Shown here in pieces: positions 6,077 to 54,914 of a stretch of DNA of 64,000 nucleotides. The stretch lies in assembly GCA_012729785.1 (NCBI GenBank), contig JAAYCL010000014.1, positions 1 through 64,000 on the forward strand, given 5' to 3'. A program made the translations under genes and the position numbers. Below the pieces are notes generated by a model. That model searched no databases and was not told where the DNA came from. It saw only the letters and a program-made list of their open reading frames with translations. This stretch comes from Chlamydiota bacterium. GTDB taxonomy: Bacteria; Auribacterota; Tritonobacteria; UBA1439. Every line of letters begins with the position of its first letter. The first letter of the stretch is position 1.

Positions 6077-7101
6077 CGGCCAGGAGAACGCATATCTCGC
6101 TCAAGGAGATCCGGCGCTACGAGCTGCTCAACACCCGCGTCTGCGACCTGCCGCTGAAGATCGAGGGGCCGCTGCGGGACTGCATCCTCGCGCACTACCG
6201 GGAGCTCCAGGCGCGAAAGATACGGTTCAGGCCCCGTTTCTACCTCGGGGCCGAGATCGAGGACGGGTGGGGATGCGTGGACGGCACGATCTGCATCGAG
6301 GTGCCGTTCTACCTCGGGAACCCGGAGCTCATGGCGCTGCACAAGGAGTACTACGGTGAGGTGGAGGGGGAGGCGGAGATACTGAAGATCCTCCGCCACG
6401 AGACCGGCCATGCGATCAACTACGCCTTTCGGCTCCACGAGCGCAAGGATTGGCAGGGGATCTTCGGCGACTTCACGAAACGGTACCCGAAATGCTACCG
6501 TACGAAGCCGTGGAGCAAGAAGCACGTGCAGCACCTCGATTCCTTCTACGCGCAGCGCCACCCCGACGAGGACTGGGCGGAGTCGTTCGCCGTCTGGCTC
6601 ACGCCGGGGGTCAACTGGCGCCGGTGCTACAAAGGCTGGGACGCGATCGAGAAGCTGATCTACGTCGATATCATCATGAAGCAGATCGGCGGCGTCTGCC
6701 CCGCCGCGCGCCGCATCGCCTACGACGCCCCCGCCCGGAAGGAGCGGCGCACCCTCGCGGAGTTGTACGACGTGGAGGCGGTGACCGCGCTGGGCGAGCA
6801 GGAGATGGAGGACTACATCAAGGATCTCGGACAGATCTTCCTCCGGCGGGTGCGCCGCAGGGAGTACCACGTTGCCGCCGCCGACTTCCTCACCCGGTAC
6901 CGGGAGGCGATCATCTCCGGGGTGGCCCGGTGGATACTGCACTCGAACAAGAACTCGGTGCGCAAGATCATCCGCCGCATGAAGGCGGTCTGCCGGCACT
7001 ACGGGCTCGTGATGATCCGGTCGGAGGGGGCCGAGAAGCTCGCCGAGGTCACCGCGCTGGTGACATGGTACGTCATCAACGACATCTACGATTTGGATTA
7101 G
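6073..7101 (+). CDS. Putative zinc metallopeptidase-like protein
   Basis: A 342-residue soluble protein with a gluzincin-like signature: HETGH at residues 109-113 inside an RHETGHAINYAF helix, and DEDWAESFAVWLTP with E170 as a likely third ligand. The first 100 residues are conserved-looking but not recognisable; the C-terminal 120 residues are helical and basic. It resembles the uncharacterised zinc-binding metallopeptidase families (Peptidase_Mx type), and the substrate is unknown. No signal peptide is present. The ATG at 6073 overlaps the deacetylase stop, so it ends the coupled triplet. Its TAG stop (7099-7101) shares its last G with the first base of the transposase element. Confidence 0.6.
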   Translation: MTARRTHISLKEIRRYELLNTRVCDLPLKIEGPLRDCILAHYRELQARKIRFRPRFYLGAEIEDGWGCVDGTICIEVPFYLGNPELMALHKEYYGEVEGEAEILKILRHETGHAINYAFRLHERKDWQGIFGDFTKRYPKCYRTKPWSKKHVQHLDSFYAQRHPDEDWAESFAVWLTPGVNWRRCYKGWDAIEKLIYVDIIMKQIGGVCPAARRIAYDAPARKERRTLAELYDVEAVTALGEQEMEDYIKDLGQIFLRRVRRREYHVAAADFLTRYREAIISGVARWILHSNKNSVRKIIRRMKAVCRHYGLVMIRSEGAEKLAEVTALVTWYVINDIYDLD

Positions 7102-7155
7102 TAGACGTTGTATGCAACCGGCTGCTGTCGTTGATGTTGCGCATTAATTCGTCCC
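7101..7155 (+). repeat. Left 55-bp arm of the transposase element
   Basis: It consists of GTAGAC, a GTTG/CAAC mini-palindrome, a 27-base spacer and the inner motif AT/TCGTCCC. The inner motif read on the minus strand encodes the last residues and TAA stop of the transposase (stop at 7144-7146). Confidence 0.75.
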
Positions 7156-7836
7156 TCTTCCCGCCCTTCTCGGCGCTCCACGTGTTCCTGGTTGAGGGCG
7201 TCCGCCTATGATCCCGATTCGGCCGCGGAAGTCATCGTCTCCGGCAGGATCCGGATTGGCCCTGAATAGCCTCTCCTCATCCGCGTCGGAATCGCAAAGG
7301 TAGGAGATGTATCCCGCCATCCGTTGCGCGGCATCGGCGCCGAAACGCTCCCATATCGGGGCTTCCACGGTCACGGGGTCCGGGATGCCGAGGCAGTGCA
7401 GCCGCGCGCTGCTGTACGGGTATTCCCATGCGTGCGCTACATAGTGCGCGCGCACCGGGTTCCTCTCGATGTACCTGGCACACGCCAGCAGGTAGCGTTC
7501 AATCTGGATTGGCTGAAGACCGAACCGGCCCTGCCAAAGAAGGCCCGAGGTTTGGTAGACCCTGTGGTGGTAATGCGTGTAGGCCCGGTCGAGGCCGGCC
7601 ATAAAAGACGAGATCCTCCGTGGATCGGCGATCTCCAGGAGCAGATGGAAGTGCGTTCGCATCAGAACCCAGTGGTAGATGCTGAGTAGGGAGGATTCCG
7701 TGTATCGGCGAAGCAGACCTATGAAATAGGCGTAATCCTCCCCTGCACGGAACAGCGGGGCGCGGTTGTTCGTGCGGTTGTACGCGTGGAAGACAAGTGA
7801 ACCGGTAAGCTGATGCCTTCTGGCTCGCGGTGGCAT
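7144..7836 (-). CDS. REP-associated tyrosine transposase (Transposase_17, IS200-like)
   Basis: A 230-residue Y1-type HUH transposase. The HUH pair is THFHLLLE (H62, H64), and the likely nucleophile is in the ERYLLACARYIERNPVRA helix (Y115 by position), a pattern diagnostic of RAYT proteins. These enzymes cleave single-stranded DNA at palindromic REP sequences. The start is the ATG at 7836, preceded by GGAGGTGAAACT; a longer reading to 7920 would run through this site. The final residues G-T-N-stop are encoded by the conserved inner motif of the left arm. The gene looks intact, and the related 111-bp elements elsewhere in the window could be its substrates. Confidence 0.88.
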   Translation of the reverse strand: MPPRARRHQLTGSLVFHAYNRTNNRAPLFRAGEDYAYFIGLLRRYTESSLLSIYHWVLMRTHFHLLLEIADPRRISSFMAGLDRAYTHYHHRVYQTSGLLWQGRFGLQPIQIERYLLACARYIERNPVRAHYVAHAWEYPYSSARLHCLGIPDPVTVEAPIWERFGADAAQRMAGYISYLCDSDADEERLFRANPDPAGDDDFRGRIGIIGGRPQPGTRGAPRRAGRGTN

Positions 7837-7898
7837 AGTTTCACCTCCCATCAGATTAGTCGCGAAATGAGAAAAAAGATTACAGGAGAAATTGAGAC

Positions 7899-7953
7899 GG
7901 GGATAAATAGTTCGCAACACTCAGCGGCGGAGTATATTGGATACAACGTCCGC
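7899..7953 (-). repeat. Inner, diverged right arm of the transposase element
   Basis: Read on the minus strand from 7953, it begins GCGGACGTTGTATCCAAT (14 of 18 positions match the left tip) and ends ATTTATCCCC 55 bases later, so it has the arm geometry. It lies 62 bases upstream of the transposase start and 59 bases inside the outer right arm. Confidence 0.5.
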
Positions 7954-8012
7954 GTCACGGTTCTTATAAGTTGCCGGCTGAGGCGGAATGCTCGCCGTGG
8001 GTGGGACGGGGG

Positions 8013-8067
8013 GGGACGAATTATTGTGTAACTACAAGTGGCGGAAGTTGTTGCATACAACGTCTAC
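8013..8067 (-). repeat. Outer right 55-bp arm of the transposase element
   Basis: Read on the minus strand, it has the same 18-base tip as the left arm and the same AATTCGTCCC inner motif at the same distance. Its last base, C8067, is also part of the stop codon of arnD. Confidence 0.75.
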
Positions 8068-46381: not shown

Positions 46382-46492
46382 GAAGACGCTGTATGCAACT
46401 GTTTCCGCACGAATGTGGTATGGCATTATTCGTCCCGGGGACGATTAAATCCGTAAGATGTTGAAGCGGTGAGTGTTGTATACAACGTCTGC
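46382..46492. repeat. 111-bp palindromic element, solo copy 1 of the transposase-linked family
   Basis: Left arm 46,382-46,436 starts GAAGACGCTGTATGCAAC; right arm 46,438-46,492, read inverted, starts GCAGACGTTGTATACAAC. Both have 27-base spacers and TCGTCCC inner ends, meeting at one central base (CGTCCC-G-GGGACG). The geometry is the same as the arms of the 7,101-8,067 element, with no gene inside. It ends 17 bases before the peptidase start codon. Confidence 0.8.
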
Positions 46493-53859: not shown

Positions 53860-54807
53860 GTGGAACGGACGCTCGGCGACATCGGCGAGTTCGCCCTCAT
53901 ACGGGAGCTGAGGGGGCGGCTGTCCGCGGGGCCGGGGACGCTCGTCGGCATCGGGGACGATGCGGCCGTGCTCGAGCCGCCCGCCCCGGGGCGCGTCCTG
54001 CTCTTCACGACGGATATGCTCGTCGAGGGGACGCACTTCGACCTCGCCGCCGCCTCCCCGTACCGGATCGGGTGGAAGGCGCTCGCCTGCAGTCTGAGCG
54101 ACATCGCCGCGATGGGCGGCGTGCCGCGCGCCGCGGTCGTGTCGCTTGGCGCCCCCGGGGGGCTCGGCGTCGACTTCTGCCGCGAGCTGTACCGGGGTAT
54201 GGACGAGGCCGCCCGGCGGTTCGACTGCGGGATCGCGGGGGGGGACACCGTCGGGAGCAGTCGCGGGCTCGCCGTGTCGGTGGCGATGCTCGGGGATGTG
54301 GAGCGGGAGCGGCTCGTCTTGCGCTCCGGCGCCCGCACCGGCGACGGCCTCTGGGTGACCGGGTGGCTGGGGGGATCGCTCGCGGGCAAACACCTCGCCT
54401 TCACGCCGCGGGTGCACGAGGCCCGTTTCCTCGTCGAGCGCTTCCCGGTAACGGCGATGATGGATCTGAGCGACGGGCTCGGGAGCGACCTGTTCAGGAT
54501 GGCGGAGGCGAGCGAGGCGGGGTTCCGGCTGTGCGCCGGCCGGATACCTGTCGACAGGGCGGCGATCGGGGATGCGGACGAGGAGACGCTCCTCCGGAGG
54601 GCGCTCTACGACGGGGAGGATTTCGAGCTGCTCGCGGCGGTGGCCCCCTCCGTCGACGACGCCGTCGTGAAGGAGGCGTTCGACGCGCGTTTCGACTGCG
54701 GGATCCGGCGGATCGGGACGGTGATGGGAAAGGCGCACGGCATCACGCTCTCGACGCCGGAGGGGGAGAGGCCCCTCATCGAGGGGGGGTTTGCACACCT
54801 CGCGTAG
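53860..54807 (+). CDS. thiL: Thiamine-monophosphate kinase
   Basis: A 315-residue ATP-dependent kinase making thiamine diphosphate. Visible are GIGDDAAVLEP (metal site), FTTDMLVEGTHFD, SLSDIAAMGG and GGDTV near residue 130, then GLGSDLFRMAE and YDGEDFELL toward the end. The start is a GTG with GGGAGGCGCGC upstream. The TAG stop (54,805-54,807) lies within the first four bases (GTAG) of a 111-bp mobile palindrome, which therefore now ends the gene. Confidence 0.92.
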   Translation: MERTLGDIGEFALIRELRGRLSAGPGTLVGIGDDAAVLEPPAPGRVLLFTTDMLVEGTHFDLAAASPYRIGWKALACSLSDIAAMGGVPRAAVVSLGAPGGLGVDFCRELYRGMDEAARRFDCGIAGGDTVGSSRGLAVSVAMLGDVERERLVLRSGARTGDGLWVTGWLGGSLAGKHLAFTPRVHEARFLVERFPVTAMMDLSDGLGSDLFRMAEASEAGFRLCAGRIPVDRAAIGDADEETLLRRALYDGEDFELLAAVAPSVDDAVVKEAFDARFDCGIRRIGTVMGKAHGITLSTPEGERPLIEGGFAHLA

Positions 54808-54914
54808 ACGTTGTATATAACTCACGCCGCCGCAACGAGTTAATACTTTAATCGTCCCCGGTACGTTTAAAGTTGTAATTCGTTCTCTGGGAGTATGATG
54901 GATACAACGTCTAC
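54804..54914. repeat. 111-bp palindromic element, solo copy 2, between thiL and tsaE
   Basis: Left arm 54,804-54,858 starts GTAGACGTTGTATATAAC and ends AATCGTCCC; right arm 54,860-54,914, read inverted, starts GTAGACGTTGTATCCATC. Each arm is 55 bases with one base between, the same as copy 1. The left GTAG holds the thiL stop. The right tip holds both candidate ATG codons of tsaE (54,895 and 54,898) and its first residues. Confidence 0.82.

Follow-up and report, generated by a model that had tools for sequence, protein, structure and literature searches.

A RAYT gene between 55-bp repeat units: a probable new family of the REPIN/RAYT kind in an Auribacterota genome

The window analysed here is a 64-kb stretch of DNA from an Auribacterota genome (G000; 2.59 Mb, 45 contigs). 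At positions 7101–8067 it contains a transposase gene enclosed by inverted repeats, which raises the question of whether the gene and its ends move together or whether a stationary gene is accompanied by moving repeats. A sequence-only reading of this locus had raised the first view as a possibility, that of a self-mobile REP/RAYT unit. The perfect 18-bp inverted ends that it described are real. The tip GTAGACGTTGTATGCAAC occurs without mismatch at 7101–7118 on the plus strand and at 8050–8067 on the minus strand, and six tip matches with up to three mismatches are found in the window, against none in 100 shuffled sequences. The inverted repeat extends to 20 bp once the flanking TA is counted, and a second arm segment (7131–7155 and 8013–8037) is 80% complementary. 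The second motif, described as equidistant from each tip, is indeed so placed: TCGTCCC ends at unit position 55 on the left and right sides alike. The left arm is a 55-bp REP unit, or half REPIN, at 7101–7155 on the plus strand (tip 7101–7118, inner box ending CGTCCC at 7155, unit model E 2.1e-8), and the right arm is another at 8013–8067 on the minus strand (E 1.7e-9). The flanking genes, which encode a putative metallopeptidase and a polysaccharide deacetylase, are convergent. The left unit gives the G of the TAG stop codon of the upstream peptidase gene, and the right unit abuts the stop codon of the downstream deacetylase gene. The RAYT gene lies between the two units as if midway in an opened REPIN. 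A degenerate third unit, absent from the earlier reading, is located just upstream of the RAYT gene (7899–7953, minus strand; E 6.7e-6).

The minus-strand frame between the tips encodes a Y1 transposase (Pfam Y1_Tnp, E 3.5e-8, above the cut-off), and the Pfam search of the protein returned no domain besides Y1_Tnp. Its earlier assignment as a RAYT (REP-associated tyrosine transposase, Y1/HUH) is supported by the NCBIfam model REP_Tyr_transpos with E 2.4e-17, but the score of 63.1 bits is under the curated cut-off of 80. The HFH (HUH), WQ and YIERNP (Y---NP) motifs are present in the RAYT alignments. The gene occupies 7144–7836 on the minus strand in a frame that is open to 7920; the start is likely to be the ATG at 7836 behind GGAGGTGA, which gives a product of 230 aa. 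The stop codon TAA (7144–7146) lies inside the left inner box, so that the final codons and the stop (7144–7155, GTN-stop) are encoded by the left unit and the gene and the repeat overlap. The alignment to E. coli TnpAREP (4er8), which spans the HUH (HFH), WQ and Y---NP motifs, is weak (E 0.085); read from it, the GTAG-contacting residues E100, H101 and R104 of the E. coli protein appear to be replaced by L, Q and Q. Single-sequence AlphaFold prediction gave an unusable model (pLDDT 46). The genome carries one RAYT of this clade. Other Y1 genes of the genome lie between long inverted repeats of their own (C36:27884, C1:75674, C35:1180 and C37:72054, corresponding to L031, L033, L034 and L036; examples are GTGGGGTCAGGTCCTTATTTATTATACTAG and GGGGTCGGACCACGTTATCT) and are TIRtron-like. 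In the related genome G001, too, a Y1 gene is flanked by the repeat of the C36 type (L057).

The genome-wide search for copies of tip and box, suggested by the sequence-only reading, revealed 37 tips at up to three mismatches, with none for a reversed-pattern control, and a unit model built from 36 aligned 55-bp units detected about 40 half-units. Most units form head-to-head pairs of 110–122 bp (REPINs), and the rest are single halves. The two 55-bp units of a pair are separated by 0–1 or 10–12 bases. A helical-turn rule for the 111-bp and 121-bp classes was considered and rejected, the size difference being that of the central loop (0–1 versus 10–12 nt). The stand-alone derivatives mentioned in the earlier reading are found in the window at 46382–46492, where two units stand head to head in a 111-bp REPIN recognized by tip matches and unit model, and at 54804–54914, also 111 bp, whose TAG terminates the reading frame of a gene judged by its sequence to be thiL-like. 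The copies share a median identity of 64% (best 86%) and are old. A 55-bp element at L013 (C37:79724–79778) consists of little beyond two tips. At L010:938–1518 (C25:67752–68332), two half REPINs surround about 470 bp resembling an IS4-type transposase relic, which sits relative to its units as the RAYT does to its two. This is probably an insertion sequence inserted into the centre of a REPIN.

The 55-bp unit starts with a tip of the form GTAG-AC-GTTG-TANN-YAAY, in which the GTAG foot is followed by two bases and a mini-hairpin (GTTG/YAAY with a 4-nt loop). The remainder of the unit is a stretch of about 14 bases without conservation, then an inner arm that ends in TTTAATCGTCCC. The spacer had been described as 27 unconserved bases; this holds for positions 19–32, but positions 33–43 are partly conserved and belong to the segment 33–55 that is conserved as a box. 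The REP hallmarks ascribed to the tip, GTAG plus a mini-palindrome, were recovered with a GTAG-like foot, and RNAalifold, unprompted, predicts the mini-hairpin alone (columns 7–10 with 15–18). The base statistics are drawn from 102 units of four genomes. Foot positions 3–4 (AG) are near invariant (100/102 and 99/102) and positions 1–2 vary; the foot is strictly GTAG in 48 units, and the GTAG-like set comprises GTAG, GCAG, CTAG and ATAG. Opposite the two G's, C or T is found in 94/102 and 102/102 units. Since both C and T pair with G, while the T variant on the other strand gives A–C, this wobble pattern suggests that it is the top strand that folds, although protein contacts could mimic it. 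Two-sided changes are nearly absent, so that the mini-hairpin is supported mainly by the wobble pattern. A second mini-hairpin in columns 29–40 was tested in the same 102 units and found unsupported. Among the bases before the tip, a search for a flanking target motif gave only a mild preference for C at −1. Arm matching was scored in 11 pairs of G000 and 10 pairs of G002, a relative from another genus. The likeness of the inner arms (positions 33–55) is greater within elements than between them; none of 20,000 permutations was as high in G000, and the corresponding fraction in G002 was 0.002. The tips and the outer spacer show no excess likeness within elements. The behaviour of the inner arms agrees with that described for REPIN spacers (PMC3116915).

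The units are closely associated with gene ends. With a home-made codon-usage gene caller applied to about 22 elements, 16 of about 25 facing gene ends were found within −3 to +4 nt of a unit, and nine neighbouring genes of G000 take their stop codon from the TAG of the tip itself. The thiL-like protein ends in ...GFAHLA at the unit and in ...GFGHFGGGRA in G001. A HemB-like protein ends in ...SWL at the unit and in ...QWLKNG or ...RWLSGA in relatives. The HemB-like gene ends in a unit's TAG both in G000 (C37:79724–79778, L013) and in G002 (C176:12589–12643); these two units are of different types and lie 9 nt apart relative to the protein. GTAG repeats that supply TAG stop codons have already been described (PMC3733652), and the gene-end insertions recruiting the tip's TAG confirm this known habit in a new lineage.

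Units are present in five of the six genomes of the bacterial family (G000, G001, G002, G003 and G004) and in none of the 38 other genomes of the phylum. A protein scan and a pattern scan of the public species genome collection detected no other carrier, and the pattern scan of viral contigs gave no match. The REPIN at 54804–54914 is missing from the matching loci of four relatives, the one at 46382–46492 from the position beside the matching gene in G001, and the HemB-end unit from G001, G003 and G004. One REPIN site is common to G000 and G001 (C4:1706–1816 and C160). At the element C42:10596 the synteny is broken at one flank and there is no clean empty site. The differences in REPIN presence between relatives indicate that the repeats have moved. 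G003 has no RAYT above about one-third identity, yet it contains about 20 units; its repeats are an orphan population. Altogether, two other genera keep repeats without a cognate RAYT.

The history of the RAYT gene itself can be followed at its locus. The peptidase and deacetylase genes stand directly next to each other in G003 and G004; in G001 they are 3 kb apart, with other DNA in between. In G002, a RAYT is located at the deacetylase stop in the same orientation, between units with the same tips, and other genes occupy about 4 kb towards the peptidase gene. This protein (C185, L139:1194–1937) is 53% identical to the RAYT of the window and is its sister with 85/84 support; a second relative elsewhere in G002 shows 54% identity. 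The HUH motif of the G002 protein at the orthologous site reads HFR in an open frame, and the protein is therefore probably inactive. At the peptidase gene of G003, GTAGGCGCTGCGCGCAAC is a tip-like relic with five mismatches whose TAG is the stop codon; the background for such five-mismatch matches is about 4 in 54 kb. The simplest reading is an ancestral RAYT at the peptidase/deacetylase locus with later losses, and judging from these sequences the gene was most likely inherited in place. The self-mobile unit proposed earlier was not borne out: the RAYT is single-copy, and its nearest relative occupies the same locus in the same orientation in another genus. The sequence-only reading had added that the same arms at orthologous places in distant relatives would indicate a conserved regulatory structure. 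G002, with the same tips, comes near to this, but units also occur at many non-orthologous places, which excludes a purely local regulatory structure.

Three related RAYT lineages within one bacterial family share one common tip, and each has its own inner box (ATTCGTCCC, CGAATGTCC and ATTCGTAC). In G002, the arms of the C4 RAYT carry GAACGAATGTCC and those of the C185 RAYT carry ATTCGTAC; other elements of this genome carry one or the other box, or belong to a third type without an identified RAYT. Two tandem 121-bp REPINs of the third type, with the inner arm TTGACGGAATATTCGTG and no identified cognate RAYT, are found at L093:394–643 (C112). C188 carries a pair of related elements (L101:429–703, 275 bp; L103:264–425, 162 bp) that are non-autonomous, share their arms with the C4 RAYT and differ by an internal stretch of about 113 bp. 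Since the tip is common to all and the boxes are RAYT-specific, the comparison suggests that the inner box rather than the tip may separate the REPIN populations. We tentatively consider a two-part REP, in which catalysis would fall to the tip, and the inner arm, close by in the paired hairpin, might give each RAYT its private REPIN population.

We regard it as very probable that RAYT, REPs (units) and REPINs (paired units) together constitute a REPIN/RAYT system. Its anatomy, its copy number, the presence and absence of copies between species and the shared RAYT site are direct observations. Two units standing head to head form a REPIN of 110–122 bp whose inner arms pair. By analogy with the family, the RAYT would bind the top-strand hairpin in single-stranded form and cut at a dinucleotide of CT type that the foot's AG selects. 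It would also copy REPINs, at a very low rate, into new positions, for the most part at the ends of genes, with the TAG of the tip acting as a stop codon. The RAYT itself would stay at its inherited place and now and then be lost, so that REPs are left behind as orphans. Against this reading stand the protein score below the NCBIfam cut-off, the apparent replacement of the GTAG-contact residues, the strict GTAG foot in under half of the units, the near absence of two-sided changes in the mini-hairpin, and the age of the copies. In the alternative of an autonomous transposon, the RAYT and its two 55-bp ends move together, and the short elements derive from this unit by internal deletion, in the manner of MITEs. 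The arms around the RAYT are exactly the halves of the short elements, and G002 contains both the 162-bp and 275-bp elements with the arms of the C4 RAYT and two partial copies of an arm with the RAYT C-terminus on the same contig. These partial copies, however, are local and may be tandem duplications. G000 has no second RAYT of the clade, in another genus the closest relative is found at this very locus and not elsewhere, and RAYTs are described in the literature as single-copy genes that are inherited vertically and make no copies of themselves (PMC8049555). An autonomous transposon is improbable.

The shared locus could also be a hot spot: with stop-codon regions as targets of the units, G000 and G002 may each have acquired their RAYT unit there independently. 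This is a variant of the REPIN/RAYT reading and compatible with it. The strong preference for gene ends, the HemB-like gene end occupied twice 9 nt apart, and the RAYT site that is empty in G003 and G004 and filled with other DNA in G001 argue for it; the identical orientation and junction in both genomes, the sister relationship of the two RAYTs despite the second RAYT of G002, and the relic with a TAG stop in G003 (five mismatches, background 4 per 54 kb) argue against it. On balance we find separate arrival possible but rather doubtful. It is far less credible that the units are conserved regulatory hairpins, acting as terminators or in translation control at gene ends, with the RAYT as a chance neighbour. 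The 16 gene ends next to units and the long stable hairpins would suit such a role, and in E. coli translation is reported to be affected by REPs that lie within 15 nt of a stop codon (cited in PMC12306157). The presence of units nevertheless differs between relatives, in two genera the RAYT genes are bordered by these same units, and units also occur as single halves and at scattered positions. A side effect of the units on gene expression may still be compatible with this.

The REPIN/RAYT features searched for were found: a class 2 Y1 RAYT in single copy flanked by cognate units, many extragenic GTAG-type hairpin REPs, and paired inverted units with a fixed-length pairing spacer. Within the known REPIN/RAYT kind the system represents a new family; it is old, was for the most part inherited, and is no freely moving transposon. 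It adds a complete REPIN/RAYT system from this bacterial family, with presence/absence data and orphaned populations. The three RAYT-plus-box combinations and the two genomes whose repeats lack a cognate RAYT provide a natural comparison for what keeps REPINs and RAYTs together.

The REPINs and RAYTs of Pseudomonas fluorescens SBW25 (Bertels and Rainey 2011, PMC3116915) show the same inverted conserved ends with a fixed-length pairing spacer, a single RAYT with cognate ends, scattered extragenic copies and decayed single units. Their spacers are compensatory, varying yet still pairing (PMC3116915). The system described here differs in the start-to-start distance of the ends (92–104 bp, not 71 bp), in the conserved inner box at the REPIN centre, in its low copy number (about 40 half-units) and in a lineage outside those studied. 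REPtrons and TIRtrons (TIRYT; Di Nocera et al. 2013, PMC3733652) resemble it in having a RAYT flanked by GTAG repeats or long TIRs of which the genome also contains single and dimeric copies, and in the supply of TAG stop codons by GTAG. The 607-type ends of P. putida, in which a degenerate GTAG unit is combined with a second palindrome (PMC3733652), can be likened to the present element, whose GTAG tip and second box, by contrast, are parts of a single unit with a constant length of 55 bp. Membership among the TIRYTs/TIRtrons was rejected: the ends carry GTAG tips without GGGGWSAS, and the protein has Y1_Tnp as its only Pfam domain, whereas TIRYTs have a C-terminal HTH and long terminal inverted repeats that are unrelated to GTAG repeats and often of the form GGGGWSAS. 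Repeats of the GGGGWSAS kind flank other Y1 genes of G000 and not the element at 7101–8067.

The group 3 / subclass 2.5 TnpAREP with short REPs, exemplified by REPtron Mb of Marinomonas (PMC8266576, PMC6006769), shares the short stem two bases from GTAG, the 4-nt loop, the greatest importance of the last two GTAG bases, and the WQ and Y---NP motifs. The stem of the Mb REP has 5 bp and lies two bases from GTAG (PMC8266576); here it has 4 bp and tolerates wobble pairs, the HUH motif is preceded by T (THFH) and not by D/N, the C-terminal part is longer, and the long inner arm is undescribed for REPMb. With the IS200/IS605 family, the RAYT shares the Y1 HUH catalytic core, and recognition of a single-stranded hairpin is expected in both. 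The present locus differs by having no tnpB between the ends, Y---NP in place of Y---Q, one gene copy and long inverted ends. Membership in autonomous IS200/IS605, with multiple near-identical copies and Y---Q, was therefore rejected for a single-copy RAYT with the motif YIERNP.
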